Positions 9,359-16,243 of a DNA stretch of 42,776 nt are shown piece by piece. The notes below the pieces were generated by a model. It made no database searches. It worked only from the letters and a program-made list of their open reading frames with translations, and had not been told where the DNA came from. The translations under genes and the position numbers were made by a program. How positions within the stretch are numbered: the stretch's first letter is position 1; every line of letters begins with the position of its first letter. The DNA comes from Desulfuromonadales bacterium. GTDB lineage: Bacteria; Desulfobacterota; Desulfuromonadia; Geobacterales; Pseudopelobacteraceae. The stretch covers positions 1 to 42,776 of the forward strand of contig JAENWA010000012.1 in assembly GCA_016650295.1 (NCBI GenBank), written 5' to 3'.

Positions 9359-9934
9359 ATGATACGTCCGTTGGAATTGCCGTATTACAAGCTGACAAAA
9401 TGGTGGCGGGCAGTCCTTCCGTTGTGCCTTGTGCTGATTATCATGCTGTCCGCATCCGCCGGTCCCGTCCGTGGTGAAGAAGCAGAGCCGGTCCGCGCCG
9501 AGCCGGATGCCGATGAGTCTGATGTGTACTACAATGCCATGCTCAGAAGCATCGAGCTTGATAAAGGGCGCTGGAAATCATTCAGCCGGTCCATGGAAAG
9601 CGGTCCGTGGTTTTATGATACCCAGAGCCTGAAGCGAAATGGCAATAAGGTAACCGCACAGGTAACGGTCTATCCCCATCCGCAAAAGACGGAACGCTAC
9701 AATTCGGTCCACGTTGACCATACGAAAATCAGAAAGATCGTATTCCTGACTGAAATCAACTGTTCCCAACATTCCTACCGACAGCCGGAGATACGCGTCT
9801 ACGGCTACTTCAGTGACCTTTTGGCCGAGCATCTGAGTAACGGGAAAAAATCCGTTTTTTCACCCATCCGGCCGGGTACGACAACCGACACCCTGCGAAC
9901 TCTGGTTTGTATCCCCGATCGCAAGAAGAAATAA
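9359..9934 (+). CDS. Adhesin-E-like exported protein
   Basis: The 191-residue protein has a signal anchor or signal peptide (residues about 17-37, LPLCLVLIIMLSASAGPVRG). Its mature part matches the surface-adhesin protein E pattern: W..F.....GPWFYDTQSLKRNGNKVTAQVTVY, then a conserved INCSQHSYR-type segment. In Haemophilus protein E binds host matrix proteins; in environmental bacteria the fold is widespread with unknown function. ATG 9359 follows AAAGG. The 241-bp gap to the divergent sixA should hold both promoters, but I see no convincing boxes. Confidence 0.6.
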   Translation: MIRPLELPYYKLTKWWRAVLPLCLVLIIMLSASAGPVRGEEAEPVRAEPDADESDVYYNAMLRSIELDKGRWKSFSRSMESGPWFYDTQSLKRNGNKVTAQVTVYPHPQKTERYNSVHVDHTKIRKIVFLTEINCSQHSYRQPEIRVYGYFSDLLAEHLSNGKKSVFSPIRPGTTTDTLRTLVCIPDRKKK

Positions 9935-10033
9935 TACGCCGGAAACAAACGGGGTCCTTTTTGATGACGCAACAGGACCCGCTCAATTGCCTACCAATTA
10001 AAAGTACTATGCGGCAGCATCTGAAAAATATTA

Positions 10034-10062
10034 TTGACACGGTTTATGTGAAACTGATAAAA
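10034..10062 (+). promoter_or_regulatory. Sigma-70 promoter of the methionine operon
   Basis: TTGACA at 10034-10039, a 17-bp spacer, and ATAAAA at 10057-10062 form a good sigma-70 promoter. The expected transcript start lies about 35 bases before the SAM riboswitch. Confidence 0.65.
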
Positions 10063-10104
10063 ATAGTACCCAGTTTACACACAAAAAAGTAAACATACCT
10101 GCAC

Positions 10105-10210
10105 TACTTATCGAGAGCGACCGAGGGACTGGCCCTGTGACGTCGCGGCAACCAGCTGAAAGGCAAGGTGCCAATTCCAGCGGGATCATCACGATCCCGG
10201 CAGATAAGGA
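10105..10210 (+). promoter_or_regulatory. SAM-I riboswitch (S-box)
   Basis: The aptamer core is plain: P1 arms CTTATC (10107-10112) and GATAAG (10203-10208), the GAGGGACTGGCCC element (10123-10135), the CGGCAACC junction (10146-10153), an AAGGTGCCAATTCC P3/P4 segment, and a P4 hairpin CGGGATCATCACGATCCCG. SAM-I riboswitches bind S-adenosylmethionine and turn off methionine and cysteine genes. Here it heads the four-gene operon that starts at 10344. Confidence 0.93.
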
Positions 10211-10220
10211 AGGATGGAGC

Positions 10221-10248
10221 AATCCCCTTCCACCCCTGGATGGGGATT
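10221..10248 (+). terminator. Riboswitch expression-platform terminator
   Basis: AATCCCC and GGGGATT pair as a 7-bp stem and are followed by TTCCATTTT. The hairpin sits 11 bases after the aptamer P1 arm, where a SAM-dependent terminator is expected. The U-tract is imperfect, so strength is uncertain. Confidence 0.65.
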
Positions 10249-10343
10249 TCCATTTTCAGTGCGATAAAAATCAGTCTGCGGTCTCGGGCAGAATGATTTT
10301 GTTAACGCACGTATCCTTGAAAAAAGGGCAGGAGGTATGACGC

Positions 10344-11522
10344 ATGCACATTTCAACACAGGCAGTTCAGACAGGGCTGGAGTGGGACACACGCACCGGA
10401 TCGGTGGCGGTTCCCATCTACCAGACCGCCACCTTCCGGCACCCCGGTCTCGGCCAGAGCACCGGCTACGATTACAGCCGCTCCGGCAACCCTACCCGCC
10501 AGACCCTGGAAGACGGTATCGCCCGCCTGGACGGAGGCGTCCGCGGTTTCGCCTATTCCTCGGGCATGGCGGCCATTACCAACCTGCTGCTGCTCTTCAA
10601 AAGCGGCGACCACCTGATTGTTACTGAAGACCTGTATGGCGGCACCTGTCGGCTGTTCGACAAGATTTTCACCCAGTACGGGCTGAGTTTTACCTATGTG
10701 GATACCAGTGATAGCGCTGCCGTACAGGCCGCCGTCACCCCTGCCACCCGGGCCCTGTTCGTCGAGACCCTCACCAATCCGCTGCTGAAGTTTGCCGATC
10801 TGGGCGCGCTTTCCGCAATCTGCCGCGAGCACGGCCTGCTGCTGATCGCCGACAACACCTTCCTGACACCCTATCTGCTGCGCCCGTTTGATCTGGGGGC
10901 CGACATCACCGTCTACAGCGCCACCAAGTACCTGTCCGGCCACAACGACACCGTCGCCGGTCTGGTGGTCGTCAAGGACCCGCAGCTGGCCGAGCAGGTC
11001 TATTTCCATCAGAACTCCGTCGGCGCTGTCCTGGGACCGCAGGATTCCTGGCTGACCATCCGCGGCATGAAGACCCTGGGAGTGCGTCTGGACCGCCACC
11101 AGGAGAATGCCCTCAGGATTGCCGGCTGGCTGCAAACCCACCCCCGCATCCGCAAAGTCTTCTATCCCGGACTGGAGGAACACCCCGATCATGAAACCAT
11201 GAAACAGGATGCACGCGGTTTCGGCGCCATGATCGCCTTCGAGGTGGATACTCACGCCCTGGTGGAGCAGGTCCTGCTGAAGACCCGACTGATCTCGTTC
11301 GCCGAGAGCCTGGGAGGAGTGGAGAGCCTGATCACCTTCCCCGAGGTGCAGACCCATGCCGATATCCCGGCTGAACTGCGCGCCCGTCTGGGCATCAATA
11401 ACGTGCTGCTGCGCCTGTCGGTCGGCATCGAGGATGCCGACGACCTGATCGAAGACCTGCGCCAGGCGCTGGAAGCGGGAAGCGTAGGGGCGCATTGCAT
11501 GCGCCCAGAAACAGTTGATTAA
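10344..11522 (+). CDS. metB: Cystathionine gamma-synthase / O-acylhomoserine sulfhydrylase (MetB/MetI type)
   Basis: The 392-residue protein is a Cys/Met-metabolism PLP enzyme. It has the Schiff-base lysine K195 in YSATKYLSGHND, the PLP-ring aspartate D170 in LIADNTF, the phosphate-binding YSSGMAA (71-77), and YDYSRSGNPTR (42-52). Such enzymes join an O-acylhomoserine with cysteine or sulfide to make cystathionine or homocysteine; the exact substrate cannot be read from sequence. ATG 10344 is placed 8 bases after AGGAGG, and an out-of-frame ATG at 10337 is ignored. It is the first gene after the SAM riboswitch. Its last residues (GAHCMRPETVD) come from a palindromic repeat. Confidence 0.88.
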   Translation: MHISTQAVQTGLEWDTRTGSVAVPIYQTATFRHPGLGQSTGYDYSRSGNPTRQTLEDGIARLDGGVRGFAYSSGMAAITNLLLLFKSGDHLIVTEDLYGGTCRLFDKIFTQYGLSFTYVDTSDSAAVQAAVTPATRALFVETLTNPLLKFADLGALSAICREHGLLLIADNTFLTPYLLRPFDLGADITVYSATKYLSGHNDTVAGLVVVKDPQLAEQVYFHQNSVGAVLGPQDSWLTIRGMKTLGVRLDRHQENALRIAGWLQTHPRIRKVFYPGLEEHPDHETMKQDARGFGAMIAFEVDTHALVEQVLLKTRLISFAESLGGVESLITFPEVQTHADIPAELRARLGINNVLLRLSVGIEDADDLIEDLRQALEAGSVGAHCMRPETVD

Positions 11523-11575
11523 CAGGCAGAAAGATAGAATCCACAACTATCGGGCGCACGTCAGTGCGCCCCTAC
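11484..11575. repeat. Pair of palindromic GTAGGGGCGCA repeats in opposite orientation
   Basis: Hairpin 1 is GTAGGGGCGCA-TTGCA-TGCGCCC at 11484-11506. Hairpin 2 is GGGCGCAC-GTCA-GTGCGCCCCTAC at 11552-11575, its inverted counterpart. They flank about 45 bp and together could also pair with each other. The first is inside the 3' end of the upstream gene, the second ends just before the next gene's ribosome site. This looks like a small dispersed repeat unit (MITE- or REP-pair-like). Confidence 0.75.
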
Positions 11576-11588
11576 AGGATGGACCACC

Positions 11589-12722
11589 ATGAAACTTGCA
11601 ACCACACTGATCCACGGCGGACCGACCGTCGATCTCCAGACCGGCGCCCTGGGGGTGCCGATCTACCAGATCTCCACCTATCGCCAGACCTCCGTCGATC
11701 ACTTCGGAAAGTACGACTATGCACGGGGAGACAACCCGACCCGCGAGGCGCTGGAGGAGACGATTGCCGCACTGGAAGGGGGCAGCCGTTGTCTGGCCTT
11801 TTCCTCCGGGATGGCGGCCATCTCCACCACCCTGATGATCTTCTCGCCCGGCGACCACCTGGTGGTCTGCGATGATGTCTACGGCGGCGCCTACCGGGTG
11901 CTCTCCACCATCTTCTCCCGCATGGGGATCAACTCCACCTTTGTGGATGCCACCGACCTGGCGGCCATAGAAGCTGCCATCCGGCCCGAGACCAAGGGGA
12001 TCTACCTGGAGACCCCCTCCAATCCGCTGCTGAAGGTTACCGACCTGCGCGGAGCGGTGGACATCGCCCGGCGGCACAGCCTCATCACCCTGGTGGATAA
12101 CACCTTCATGACCCCCTACCTGCAGCGCCCGCTGGAACTCGGCTGCGACATCGTCCTGCACAGCGGTACCAAGTTCCTCAACGGCCACAGCGACGTCATC
12201 TGCGGCTTTGCCGTAGTTAAGGACACGGACCTGGGAAACCGCATCCGCTATATCCAGAATGCCTTCGGCACCGGTCTGGGACCGCAGGACTCGTTCCTGA
12301 CCCTGCGCGGCGTCAAGACCCTCAAGGTCAGGATGGATCAGAGCCAACTGAATACCATGAAAATCGCCGCCTGGCTCAAGGCGCACCAGCGGGTTACAGC
12401 GATGTATTACCCCGGCCTGCCCGAACATCCCGGCTACGCCATCCATGCCGCCCAGTCTGACGGACCGGGGGCGGTCTTCTCCTTTGAGCTGGATTCCTTC
12501 GAGACCACCAAGCGGTTGCTGGAAGGTTCCAGGCTGGCCGCCTTCGCCGTCAGTCTGGGGGGTGTGGAGAGTATCATCTCCTACCCGGCCCGCATGTCGC
12601 ATGCCTCGGTACCGCCGGAAGAGCGCAAGCGCAAAGGGATCACCGATACCCTGGTGCGGCTCTCGGTCGGGCTGGAAGATCCGGACGACCTGATCGCCGA
12701 TCTGGATCAGGCCATGGGCTGA
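11589..12722 (+). CDS. metC: Cystathionine beta-lyase / gamma-synthase family enzyme (MetC type)
   Basis: The 377-residue protein is a paralogue of the upstream enzyme, with K195 in HSGTKFLNGHSD, D170 in LVDNTF, FSSGMAA (71-77) and YDYARGDNPTR (42-52). By analogy with the MetI-MetC pairs of Bacillus, the second enzyme probably cleaves cystathionine to homocysteine, pyruvate and ammonia, but gamma-synthase, gamma-lyase or O-acetylhomoserine activity cannot be excluded. ATG 11589 follows a weak GGA. The start lies 66 bp after the upstream stop with the palindromic repeat pair in between, and the two genes share the SAM-riboswitch transcript. Confidence 0.82.
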   Translation: MKLATTLIHGGPTVDLQTGALGVPIYQISTYRQTSVDHFGKYDYARGDNPTREALEETIAALEGGSRCLAFSSGMAAISTTLMIFSPGDHLVVCDDVYGGAYRVLSTIFSRMGINSTFVDATDLAAIEAAIRPETKGIYLETPSNPLLKVTDLRGAVDIARRHSLITLVDNTFMTPYLQRPLELGCDIVLHSGTKFLNGHSDVICGFAVVKDTDLGNRIRYIQNAFGTGLGPQDSFLTLRGVKTLKVRMDQSQLNTMKIAAWLKAHQRVTAMYYPGLPEHPGYAIHAAQSDGPGAVFSFELDSFETTKRLLEGSRLAAFAVSLGGVESIISYPARMSHASVPPEERKRKGITDTLVRLSVGLEDPDDLIADLDQAMG

Positions 12723-12728
12723 TACAGT

Positions 12729-13535
12729 TTGAACATCCGTATCAATGAACATACAGCTGTTGTAGCGGAAAGTTCCACTCTGGGCGATCTTGCGGGAATC
12801 CATAAGCCGGGTGCCGATGTGCTGATCCTGAACGGCTTTCCGGCGGCACCGGACACCCGGATATGTGAAGGGGACGAGGTGTTCCTGATCCGTCGGGGTG
12901 AGCAGCCGACCAGGGACGAGTTGGAGCACCTGATGGCGGCCCGGCACACACCCGGCGTTCATGCCCGGCTGAAGCAGGCCGTGGTCGGGATAGCCGGCGC
13001 CGGCGGACTTGGTTCGGCTGTGGCGGTGGCCTTGGCGCGGGTCGGTGTGGGACGCCTGATTATCGTTGATTTTGATGTGGTGGAGCCTTCCAACCTCAAT
13101 CGCCAGCACTACTTCATCGACCAGATCGGCATGTTCAAGGTAACAGCGCTGACGGACAATCTGCGGCGCATCAACCCGTACGTGACCGTGGAGCCGCACA
13201 CGATCCTGCTTGAGCCCGGAAACATCTCCGGCATCTTTACCGATTGCCCGATCATTGTGGAGGCCTTCGACCGGGCCGACATGAAGGCCATGCTGGTAAA
13301 CACGGTCCTGGAGCAACTGTCCGGGGCAACGGTCATCGCCGCATCGGGACTGGCCGGATACGGCCCCAACAATGACATCGTGACCACAAAGGTCGCCGCG
13401 CGGCTGTACCTGGTGGGTGACGGCACATCTGAGGCGCGCCCCGGCAGCGGACTGATGGCGCCGCGGGTCGGCATTGCCGCCGGACACCAGGCCAATCAGG
13501 TGGTGCGCCTGATACTTGGGGAGGATGCGCCATGA
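12729..13535 (+). CDS. thiF: ThiF-type adenylyltransferase with N-terminal ThiS-like domain
   Basis: The 268-residue protein starts at TTG 12729, six bases after metC. Residues 1-57 look like a ThiS beta-grasp domain (MNIRINEHTAVV ... VLILNGFP ... RICEGDEVFLIRRG) but end without the usual Gly-Gly tail. Residues 80-268 are an E1-like domain: G90-x-G-G-x-G95 nucleotide loop, IVDFDVVEPSNLNRQ (112-126), K137. This matches the short ThiF family 2, which lacks the CxxC zinc pairs of E. coli ThiF. It should adenylate the C-terminus of a sulfur carrier. Its place between methionine genes and mnmA suggests sulfur delivery to methionine or tRNA instead of, or besides, thiamine. Confidence 0.82.
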   Translation: MNIRINEHTAVVAESSTLGDLAGIHKPGADVLILNGFPAAPDTRICEGDEVFLIRRGEQPTRDELEHLMAARHTPGVHARLKQAVVGIAGAGGLGSAVAVALARVGVGRLIIVDFDVVEPSNLNRQHYFIDQIGMFKVTALTDNLRRINPYVTVEPHTILLEPGNISGIFTDCPIIVEAFDRADMKAMLVNTVLEQLSGATVIAASGLAGYGPNNDIVTTKVAARLYLVGDGTSEARPGSGLMAPRVGIAAGHQANQVVRLILGEDAP

Positions 13536-14593
13536 AGATTGCAGTTGCCATGAGCGGCGGGGTGGACTCATCGGTGACTGCCGCCCTGCTGATACAGCAG
13601 GGGCACGAGGTGATCGGCATCACCATGCGGCTGTTCGAGCCCTGCACAACCGGCAGCGGTTCGGCGGCCCACGATGCGGCGCTGGTGGCCGCACATCTGG
13701 GAATCCCCCATCATCTGGCCGAGTTCGAACCTGAATTCCGTGAACTGATCATCAACGACTTCATCGCGGAGTACGGCTGCGGCCATACGCCCAACCCCTG
13801 TGTACGCTGCAACCGCTACATCAAGTTCGGCCTGCTGCTGGACAAGGCCCGCGAACTGGGGGCCGACCTGCTGGCTACCGGCCACTACGTCCGCAAAACC
13901 GTTGACTCGGACGGCGCCTGTCATCTGCGTATGGCCCGCAACATCCGCAAGGATCAGTCCTATTTCCTCTATACCCTGACACAGCCGAGGCTGGCGCAGT
14001 TGCTCTTTCCCCTCGGAGATTGCGAGAGCAAGGACGACGTGCGTCGCCTGGCCAGGGAATTCGGCCTGCCGGTGGCCGAAAAGAGCGACAGCCAGGAGGT
14101 CTGCTTTATCCCGGGTGATGATTATGTGGCCTTTCTGGAAGGGAACAACGGGCTGGCCGACACCCGTGGTGACATCGTGCACCTGAACGGGACGCTGCTG
14201 GGACGACACCGGGGAACGCATCGCTATACGATCGGCCAGCGCAAAGGGATGGGGATCGCCTGGAGCGAACCGCTGTATGTGGTGGCGATTGAAACCGGAA
14301 GCAAGCGGGTGGTGGTGGCGGAACAGCAGCATCTCTTTGCGCCGGGGCTGCTGGCAACAGACCTGAGTTGGGTTGCCGGGGTATCGGAGACGGAGATGGC
14401 CTGCAGCTGCAAGATCCGCTATCGGCATCTGCCGGTGGCCTGTCATGTGCGGATACGGGACGGGGGTAACTGCGAGGTGCTCTTTGAACAGGTACAGAAA
14501 TCGGTCACACCCGGTCAGTCGGTGGTCTTCTATCAGGGCGATGAGGTCCTGGGAGGCGCCAGGATCGTTTCAGCGCTTCGCACACAACAGTAA
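13532..14593 (+). CDS. mnmA: tRNA-specific 2-thiouridylase MnmA
   Basis: The 353-residue protein has the PP-loop SGGVDSSV (8-15), catalytic C90 in TPNPCVRCN and the partner C191 in SDSQEVCFIPGDDY, plus the C-terminal beta domain, so it should be active. MnmA places sulfur on U34 of tRNA Lys, Glu and Gln. The segment after strand 2 (LFEPCTTGSGSAAHDA) departs from the usual WCCS-D-x-DA form. The ATG overlaps the thiF stop by four bases (ATGA, 13532-13535), so both are coupled. Being in a SAM-riboswitch operon is unusual and suggests a second, specialised copy. Confidence 0.9.
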   Translation: MKIAVAMSGGVDSSVTAALLIQQGHEVIGITMRLFEPCTTGSGSAAHDAALVAAHLGIPHHLAEFEPEFRELIINDFIAEYGCGHTPNPCVRCNRYIKFGLLLDKARELGADLLATGHYVRKTVDSDGACHLRMARNIRKDQSYFLYTLTQPRLAQLLFPLGDCESKDDVRRLAREFGLPVAEKSDSQEVCFIPGDDYVAFLEGNNGLADTRGDIVHLNGTLLGRHRGTHRYTIGQRKGMGIAWSEPLYVVAIETGSKRVVVAEQQHLFAPGLLATDLSWVAGVSETEMACSCKIRYRHLPVACHVRIRDGGNCEVLFEQVQKSVTPGQSVVFYQGDEVLGGARIVSALRTQQ

Positions 14594-14595
14594 CC

Positions 14596-14678
14596 CTTCG
14601 ACTTTCGCTCAGGGCAGGCCCTCATCCCTCATCCCTCATCCCTCATCCTTCAACCTTCAACCTTCAACCTTCAACCTT
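14596..14678. repeat. Heptamer array with CTTCGACTTTCGCTCAGG unit
   Basis: A CCTTCGACTTTCGCTCAGGGCAGGCC unit is followed from 14621 by about eight 7-bp units (ctcatcc four times, then ttcaacc four times) filling the gap between two convergent genes. Confidence 0.9.
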
Positions 14679-14680
14679 AA

Positions 14681-16243
14681 TTATTTTTTCCCTTTGATCC
14701 TCGCCATGTTCAGCCTGTTTTCGGGATTACGAATCTTGAATTCCAGATACTTGGCGGCTTTCTTGAACTTTTCGTTCTTGAGCAACTTGTCGGACAGAAT
14801 GATCAATGACTGCACCACGCGCATTTCCGCCTCTTCGTAGCCGAATCCTTTCCCCTCGACGATTTTCCGCAGATAGTTCAGGATGTCCCGCTGGTCATCT
14901 TCTATCGTAAAGCGGTCCGGCGCCGCGATAAACAGGATATAGCGGGCCGTCTCGCGAATGTCGGCCGCCAGGTCCGGATCCTTGAGCAACGCATCAACCA
15001 CCGCGGCAATACTTCCCTTCTCGGCATAATTAAGGCTCTTGTTTTCAACGTAGTACTGCAGGTAGCCCAGGGCCGGGATCTGGTTTTCCACCCCCCCCAG
15101 CTTGAAAAGCAGGAGATGCGAGACCAGCAGCTTGAGTGTCTCATCCTCGTCGGGCAGCAGGAAACAGTGCAGCATCAGGGCGATCTTTTCACGGGCAGGC
15201 CCGGTCAGTGGCTCTTCGCCCTCTATTTTAAACCTGATCTGCTCCAGCAGTTCACGCTTGTTGACGTACTCGCCATACCTGATTCTGACAATCAGACCGC
15301 GTACCTCGGCATCTTCCGTGTAGCTCCACAGTTCGTCAACCGCTGCGTTGATCCTGCGGCAGAGGGCATTTAGCTTATCCTCCTTGGCCGGTTCGTCCTG
15401 GTTCCAGTAATCCGGATAGATGTCCAGAATCGAATCAATGTCATCCGTGCGCCTGATTTTGTCCATGACATAATTGAAGTAGTTCAGGATCTTGATCTGA
15501 TAGGATGATCCACCTCCGGTAAGCGGGCGGAGGAGATCCTCAAGAAAGGTTGCGTTCAGGCCCGAAGTGCCGCTGCACAGATAGCGATAAACCCCATCGG
15601 CCTTCTCGATCTGCTTTTCTACATACTTCTGTCGCAGGGCCGCACCAAGTTCGGTCGTCTGAACCTTTTTGAAGAACACACTCAGCAAGGTAGATGCGTA
15701 ATGTTTCATGTTGTTGTCGGCATCGTCGGAGAGGATGATGTCCAGACATGCGTCAAAGATCTTGACCTGTTCGTGCTCATCCACGGAGGCATCTATGTAT
15801 TCCTCCAGAATGACCATAATCTCTGCCATGTGGCTGCGGTTGCGGCTGCTGAGCAACGTCATGAACGTACCGCGCAGGCTGGCCGAATCGACAATTCCAA
15901 ACAGAAATCTGACGGCGGCGTTGTGGCGCGCGGCGCCTTTATGATCGCCTGACTTGAGCAGCCGCAGGATACTCTCGGCCGGGTCCGAGACCCAGTCCGG
16001 AACGAGCGACTCCATCATGAATTCGGCCTTTTTTCGTACACGGGTATCGAGGTCATAGAGAAAATACTTGGCGACTTCGATCTTGAATTCACGGCTGCCG
16101 GAAGAAGCGGTAATAATATCGAAGGCGGACGCCTTGTCTTTTGAAGAAAGTTGAGAGAGATCTTTCTTGGCCTTGACGGGATCGTTGATTTTTATGTAGA
16201 AACTTACTATGTCCTTGACGGATACTTCATCATCAAAATCCAT
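14681..16243 (-). CDS. Large helical-repeat (HEAT-like) protein, unknown function
   Basis: The 520-residue product is almost entirely predicted helical, soluble, with no signal peptide, and has paired amphipathic helices typical of HEAT/ARM-like scaffolds (for example DTRVRKKAEFMMESL, NMKHYASTLLSVFFKK, SHLLLFKLGGVENQIPALGYLQYY). I cannot name a family. ATG 16243 follows GGAAGGTG. Its stop lies directly at the edge of the heptamer array. No conserved catalytic motif is visible; a role as a protein-binding scaffold is only an inference. Confidence 0.6.
   Translation of the reverse strand: MDFDDEVSVKDIVSFYIKINDPVKAKKDLSQLSSKDKASAFDIITASSGSREFKIEVAKYFLYDLDTRVRKKAEFMMESLVPDWVSDPAESILRLLKSGDHKGAARHNAAVRFLFGIVDSASLRGTFMTLLSSRNRSHMAEIMVILEEYIDASVDEHEQVKIFDACLDIILSDDADNNMKHYASTLLSVFFKKVQTTELGAALRQKYVEKQIEKADGVYRYLCSGTSGLNATFLEDLLRPLTGGGSSYQIKILNYFNYVMDKIRRTDDIDSILDIYPDYWNQDEPAKEDKLNALCRRINAAVDELWSYTEDAEVRGLIVRIRYGEYVNKRELLEQIRFKIEGEEPLTGPAREKIALMLHCFLLPDEDETLKLLVSHLLLFKLGGVENQIPALGYLQYYVENKSLNYAEKGSIAAVVDALLKDPDLAADIRETARYILFIAAPDRFTIEDDQRDILNYLRKIVEGKGFGYEEAEMRVVQSLIILSDKLLKNEKFKKAAKYLEFKIRNPENRLNMARIKGKK

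Follow-up and report, generated by a model that had tools for sequence, protein, structure and literature searches.

A SAM riboswitch-headed methionine operon that includes thiF and mnmA in a Desulfuromonadales bacterium

The HcyS/HcyF/HcyD/MetY system of Wolinella succinogenes reportedly uses a sulfur carrier and an E1 enzyme for the synthesis of homocysteine. An S-box, the riboswitch for S-adenosylmethionine (SAM), is described ahead of metIC in Geobacter and Desulfuromonas in the available parts of two papers (PMC545781; PMC2700814), the second of which deals with the G. metallireducens genome. Fusions of a ThiS-like domain to ThiF were treated by Iyer (2006), who argued, in the accessible portion of that work, for a role of the fused domain unlike that of free ThiS, and who described one case outside thi operons, in Pelobacter propionicus, next to sulfur amino acid genes (PMC1779556). 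The present analysis concerns an operon in which these elements meet: a SAM-I riboswitch, in agreement with the S-box of Geobacter and Desulfuromonas, is followed by metB-like, metC-like, thiF and mnmA genes in a 42,776-nucleotide stretch of DNA from a Desulfuromonadales bacterium of the Pseudopelobacteraceae (contig JAENWA010000012.1), referred to below as the window.

The operon is probably a transsulfuration operon (metB/metI-metC) under a SAM riboswitch which took in two sulfur-transfer genes of other pathways, and its ThiF probably charges the ThiS protein encoded on another contig (C32) of the same genome. The parts themselves are known; the new point is regulon capture, with thiF placed under SAM rather than thiamine pyrophosphate (TPP) control and mnmA attached. 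A literature search, with limited coverage of subscription journals, turned up no paper on thiF-mnmA under SAM-riboswitch control. The features of the operon, in order, are these:

10034..10061, + strand: possible sigma-70-like promoter, TTGACA-N16-GATAAA; weak, the pattern having been composed after the site was seen
10105..10210, + strand: SAM-I riboswitch aptamer (RF00162, 90.9 bits, gathering score 44.4, E 1.5e-20)
10203..10213, + strand: P1 3' strand, also the proposed antiterminator arm, GATAAGGAAGG, with CCTTCC at 10226-10231 as its complement; pattern present after 33 of 35 aptamers
10215..10256, + strand: intrinsic terminator hairpin, AATCCCC..GGGGATT plus a T-rich tail (-19.4 kcal/mol; conserved)
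10344..11522, + strand: metB/metI-like pyridoxal phosphate (PLP) enzyme, cystathionine gamma-synthase type (PF01053, Cys_Met_Meta_PP, E 3.4e-147)
11589..12722, + strand: metC-like PLP enzyme, cystathionine beta-lyase type (PF01053, E 1.3e-146)
12729..13535, + strand: ThiS-like/ThiF fusion of ThiF family 2, proposed ThiS adenylyltransferase, TTG start (PF14453 and PF00899)
12729..12899, + strand: ThiS-like beta-grasp domain of the fusion, residues 1-57, without a Gly-Gly tail (PF14453, 68.2 bits against a gathering score of 26)
13532..14593, + strand: mnmA, tRNA 2-thiouridine(34) synthase (NF001138, 405 bits against a cut-off of 284)

The riboswitch leader and its operon

Judged from its sequence, the leader looks like a terminator/antiterminator platform, which would be expected to act on the whole transcript. 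In a set of 35 SAM aptamers, made up of the window and 34 model matches with one genome counted twice (L091 and L211), 33 show the P1 3' strand GATAAGG(A/G)AG(A/G), then a pyrimidine arm complementary to it, then a purine arm (GGA..GGGGAT); the pattern was composed after inspection of 15 leaders. By eye, the remaining two aptamers also precede this terminator, with a first (antiterminator) arm that differs from the written pattern. On this pattern evidence the leader has the mutually exclusive terminator and antiterminator expected of a SAM-I riboswitch. Counted over both strands of L077-L136, the terminator core with TTT has 19 occurrences, 18 of them in SAM leaders and one before metB in L098. 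A strict hairpin-plus-T rule, applied in the first search, had given a hairpin of -8 kcal/mol or lower in 2/28 leaders and in 2/140 shuffles. At low SAM, the P1 3' strand would sequester the terminator's 5' arm by pairing, allowing read-through and production of all four genes, while at high SAM P1 and the terminator would form and the transcript would end before metB.

The original prediction placed both a promoter and a SAM-I riboswitch at the head of the operon. The riboswitch is borne out and the promoter remains weak, its pattern being post hoc. A looser version of that pattern was found in one of 29 leaders, the window itself, and in two of 580 random stretches, and a generic promoter scan of the + strand from 9500 to 15000 detected no sigma-70-like site, missing the proposed main promoter as well.

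The single riboswitch-headed, tightly packed metB-metC-thiF-mnmA order that had been proposed matches the open reading frames. The metB and metC genes stand 66 bp apart, a looser spacing, metC and thiF are separated by a 6-bp gap, thiF and mnmA overlap by 4 bp, and the four genes are presumably co-transcribed. Neither PLP enzyme reached a cut-off among the 25 NCBIfam families listed for each; the top match of the metC-like enzyme, under its cut-off, is cystathionine beta-lyase PRK08064, and the metB/metI-like enzyme is assigned at the level of its family, not of its exact activity. Together, MetB and MetC would convert cysteine and acylhomoserine to homocysteine, with MetX supplied from elsewhere. 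A metX gene with its own SAM riboswitch lies in the same genome on C32 (L137:1042-2310), less than 3 kb from a TPP-riboswitch thiSGE operon. An assembly artefact was rejected as the source of the gene order, which recurs in G004, G020 and G029, genomes of one contig each, and in the isolate Oryzomonas japonica.

A SAM aptamer is present in 26 of the 28 named loci that have metB together with upstream sequence (one aptamer is truncated by a contig end). The two loci without one differ in their leaders. In L098 (3270-3321) the terminator remains before metB and the aptamer is gone, as in a riboswitch remnant; in L133 (2161-4843) an Rrf2-like regulator gene and cysK precede metB and no SAM aptamer was found, a possible swap of riboswitch for protein regulator.

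Context, fold and partner of ThiF

The placement of thiF was followed in 57 genomes, the window's own included, of which 36 belong to the window's family and 21 to other families of the order. A full-length ThiF match of at least 65% identity was found in 28 of them (25/36 and 3/21, respectively). Within the family, mnmA begins no more than 50 bp after the ThiF gene in 20 of the 25 genomes; the exceptions are G026, where a window-type mnmA was not found, G024 and G010, where the contig ends, and G006 and G013, where the two genes lie 3.9 kb and 0.9 kb apart, respectively. Upstream of the ThiF gene lies metC in 19 of the 25, metC-cysK in 3 and neither, as far as seen, in 3. With mnmA following in 20 genomes and metC or metC-cysK preceding in 22, the gene order is not due to chance, and it extends beyond one strain: it is kept across the family.

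A second set of 60 named loci, many from the same genomes, separates two contexts by ThiF identity (L136, a short match, is excluded from the counts). In the 38 loci with 68-77% identity, met genes lie upstream in 33 (within 165 bp in 27, at 617-1244 bp in 4, and with cysK between in 2); four of the other five have no met genes in the flank and one has no flank. In the same 38 loci mnmA lies within 50 bp in 32, and thi genes occur in none. The 21 loci with 46-60% identity show thi genes in 16, and met genes or mnmA in none. Outside the order, all eight sampled genomes of the class with PF14453 carry the fusion beside thiS, thiH and thiE (thiG was seen in seven), and a TPP aptamer lies just upstream in all eight. 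Across 80 loci, 34 matches to the SAM model and 11 to the TPP model were obtained, never both in one locus; the consensus structure of the TPP model (R2) is poor, and the 6 of its 11 matches that lie in loci also scanned with Rfam were all recovered there. The window itself has no TPP riboswitch match at the gathering score, so its operon does not qualify as a TPP-riboswitch thi operon. Elsewhere in the window, a group II intron domain (RF00029, 67.3 bits) lies at 2790-2866, + strand.

Because its orthologues adjoin thi genes behind a TPP riboswitch in all eight class relatives, the window ThiF is, by orthology, a thiamine-type ThiF (family 2). It also passes both family 2 cut-offs (TIGR02354, 254 bits against 152.2; PRK08644/thiF_fam2, 299.3 bits against 159). 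In the ThiF tree the context labels cluster strongly: they need 11 changes, and shuffled labels need 29.8 on average. The root and the number of moves are unsure, as long branches of clostridial proteins fall among those of the Geobacterales side. In three order-level relatives (f3) the fusion gene lies in neither operon type, with a SAM-metB unit about 5-7 kb away in two of them, and in a sample of the phylum PF14453 was detected at E 0.001 in 55 of 395 genomes. An HDOD-like gene stands between metC and thiF in L086 (4914-5963) and L105 (4916-6004). This name, like ResB/CcsA, HEAT, JAB, AOR, sulfite-reductase-like, Rrf2, CysK, CysE, LarE and cysH/D/N, was presumed from the appearance of the sequence.

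Residues 1-57 had been predicted to form a built-in ThiS-like domain without the Gly-Gly tail, and both parts of this are supported. AlphaFold2 gives a pLDDT of 91.9 for the whole fusion protein and 94.1 for residues 1-62 alone, in the order beta-beta-alpha-beta-beta, and Foldseek ranks G. metallireducens ThiS first (3cwi, E 4.7e-4), which together with PF14453 argues for a beta-grasp fold. The fold by itself does not identify the domain as ThiS, because VIA-align ranks the TGS domain 3hvz (Z 8.5) above E. coli ThiS (1zud_2, 7.6) and 3cwi (7.1); a profile comparison with the ThiS of C32 gave a probability of 44%. The Gly-Gly tail is absent from all 30 aligned fusion proteins, met-linked and thi-linked (30 of the 52 full-length fusion proteins were aligned), and the domain continues into the ThiF domain instead. 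The tail loss therefore looks like a trait of the protein family and not a local loss. Lacking the free C-terminal Gly-Gly of the sulfur carriers ThiS and MoaD, the domain is probably a docking or structural module. The residues GxGGLGS, D114, D116, R125, Q126, K137 and D181, which we take to be the adenylation site of the window ThiF, are invariant across the met- and thi-linked proteins of the alignment.

If the fused domain does not carry sulfur, another ThiS should, as originally suggested, and the genome makes this likely. On C32 (L137) a TPP riboswitch is followed by thiS, thiG and thiE, with thiF absent, and this ThiS is free and ends in GGG. The thiG gene of C32 is the only one in the genome (PF05690, 388 bits; no ThiG name was returned by NCBIfam). 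Only two further ThiF-family proteins exceed the cut-off in the genome. On C79 (L040) an E1 gene lies beside genes for a ThiS in which nine further residues follow GGG, for a JAB-like protein and for a MetY-like enzyme, the last two below NCBIfam cut-offs; on C85 (L041) a Moco riboswitch precedes an AOR-like gene, and MoaD-like and E1 genes accompany it. Elimination and orthology together make the window ThiF the best candidate for charging the C32 ThiS. It would adenylate the Gly-Gly end of that protein, and the charged ThiS would then serve as the sulfur source of ThiG in making the thiamine thiazole. A lack of ThiI was weighed as a possible reason for the ThiF-MnmA link: a partial match to PF02568 (ThiI) occurs in open frames of 335-442 aa in 48/57 genomes, independently of the presence of the fusion ThiF, and the match in the window's genome is far under the ThiI cut-off.

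Several observations weigh against the proposed history and partnership. The SAM aptamer is missing from two of the 28 metB loci (L098 and L133), no metB was found ahead of metC in L078 and L081, and five of the 21 distant loci have neither thi nor met genes (two of these have 36 bp or less downstream). The ThiF tree leaves a single relocation unresolved, the met label requiring six changes. ThiG is present in 57/57 genomes, including those in which no fusion ThiF was found, so ThiS can be served by a different E1; the C79 or C85 E1 might do this in the window's genome. Finally, ThiH was not found in that genome, a further gap in its thiazole pathway, and exceeds the cut-off in only 5/57 genomes, which bears on the source of dehydroglycine. 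The available part of Rodionov (2004) states that Geobacter is without thiF and thiH (PMC545781).

MnmA and alternative explanations

The window MnmA looks like an ordinary enzyme in its sequence: it has the three MnmA domains and aligns to E. coli MnmA (2der), with Cys93 and Cys191 corresponding to the E. coli cysteines. It would 2-thiolate U34 of tRNA using the persulfide of a cysteine desulfurase. Proteins with at least 64% identity to it occur in 25 genomes of the family and are the sole match at 1e-30 in 20 of the 25 (17 of these 20 genomes are at least 90% complete). A non-tRNA paralogue is unlikely, given this sole occurrence and the retention of both cysteines. The second mnmA that had been sought in the window's genome is present on C79 (L040; 53% identity) between cysH- and cysD-like genes, and could cover tRNA thiolation; it adjoins the cluster of ThiS, E1, JAB-like and MetY-like genes and a LarE-like gene.

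MnmA is found in 116 of 117 genomes of the class sample, and mtaB lies beside or near mnmA in 11 of 13 loci from other families. In the f3 loci with a window-like MnmA, no mtaB was seen in the available flank, and in L234 a gene for a NifS-type cysteine desulfurase (above cut-off) ends 3 bp before mnmA. The MnmA tree splits the window lineage from the mtaB- and cys-linked lineages (97/90); L065, L067 and L069 were dropped from it for a stop or unreadable residues, and four duplicates were excluded. This separation, with the mtaB linkage of other families, suggests that mnmA too was moved. In G002 the unit is SAM-metB-metC-mnmA without the fusion ThiF, with a 4-bp overlap of metC and mnmA; G026 has metC-thiF without a window-type mnmA.

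The alternative that fares best, though it is clearly less likely than regulon capture, is that thiF and mnmA are merely linked to the met genes, being transcribed mainly from internal promoters with a small effect of SAM. A gene shut off by SAM would be awkward where mnmA is the sole copy, as in 20 of the 25 family genomes carrying it. The metC-thiF gap of 617-1244 bp in four named loci also fits this explanation (of three inspected, two contain an HDOD-like gene and one a small open reading frame), as does the occurrence of thiF-mnmA without met genes nearby in L099, L103, L106 and L212. Against it stand the 6-bp gap and 4-bp overlap of the window; in addition, the riboswitch seems to be a transcription attenuator that would reach the distal genes, and the generic scan, with the limit noted above for the main promoter, detected no internal site. 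SAM control of tRNA thiolation is plausible from the arrangement of the genes.

Those same four loci also speak for a second explanation, in which ThiF and free ThiS pass sulfur to MnmA, or a persulfide on MnmA is passed to activated ThiS, by analogy with Urm1-Uba4-Ncs6 or ThiI. If true, this would be a bacterial thiocarboxylate route to s2U34, or a replacement of ThiI by MnmA, and SAM would govern the sulfur flow to both. Its expected trace would be mnmA paired repeatedly with E1 genes of several types, and such pairs exist. Two genomes in which no fusion ThiF was found, G012 and G031, have a MoeB-like E1 gene directly after mnmA (L227:2329-4136, with a 7-bp overlap in this closely inspected case, and L228:2454-4228); the L227 protein is just above the cut-off of MoeB PRK05690 and below the rest. 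In G004 and G034 a TcdA-like E1 gene follows mnmA (L215:5250-7095, where that label is below cut-off and possible tRNA modification genes are neighbours), and in L106 mtaB (above cut-off) precedes thiF-mnmA. A common sulfur requirement, or a role in tRNA modification, can account for all these pairs. Against the explanation, the persulfide cysteines are kept in MnmA, thiF and mnmA each occur alone behind metC (G026 and G002), and known MnmA enzymes are of the persulfide type in the available part of one source (PMC3980101). An E1-MnmA link is thus a weakly supported possibility, and sulfur transfer of this kind is improbable.

Least probable of all, and quite unlikely, is a Wolinella-type synthesis of homocysteine in which the window ThiF would charge a carrier feeding MetB: it shares an operon with methionine genes, but that operon has no carrier, JAB-like or MetY-like genes, such a set lies at C79 with its own E1, and orthologues of this ThiF stand in TPP-controlled thi operons. 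The HcyS/HcyF/HcyD/MetY system was on these grounds rejected for the window. The original view of ThiF and MnmA as a dedicated pair tied to methionine synthesis is likewise not supported, given the thiamine orthology of ThiF, the gene set at C79 and the occurrence of each gene without the other (G002, G026). The position of a ThiF gene next to met genes is not by itself evidence for thiocarboxylate-dependent methionine synthesis.

Regulon capture, by comparison, provides a candidate, at least for the window's family, for the thiF gene that Geobacter was said to lack in the available part of the 2004 survey (PMC545781). It is a clear case of a cofactor gene that belongs to the TPP regulon in relatives and to the SAM regulon in one family. 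If the co-regulation is real, SAM status would tune thiamine synthesis and wobble thiolation of tRNA along with methionine synthesis.

Comparison with known systems

The Wolinella succinogenes system shares its general type, a carrier with an E1, and a similar set of genes occurs in the same genome at C79 (L040), not in the window. The MnmA protein has the three domains, PP-loop and both cysteines of E. coli MnmA (2der) and of the B. subtilis enzyme encoded by yrvO-mnmA; unlike that arrangement, as given in the available part of its description (PMC5372745), the window mnmA stands behind thiF under a SAM riboswitch, not behind a cysteine desulfurase gene.

The head of the operon corresponds to the S-box metIC unit of Geobacter and Desulfuromonas (Rodionov 2004, PMC545781; PMC2700814), with which it shares a SAM riboswitch and terminator, followed by linked genes for two Cys/Met PLP enzymes, and a metX that has its own S-box. 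The available parts of these sources name metIC (metC-1-metC-2) alone, whereas the window unit adds thiF and mnmA. The fusion protein, in turn, corresponds to the ThiS-like/ThiF fusion of thiamine operons as treated in the accessible portion of PMC1779556: both have PF14453 and PF00899 in a thiF_fam2 protein, a tail-less N-terminal domain and a free ThiS elsewhere. The difference lies in its location, as the gene of the window's family belongs to a SAM-controlled methionine operon and not to a TPP-controlled thi operon.

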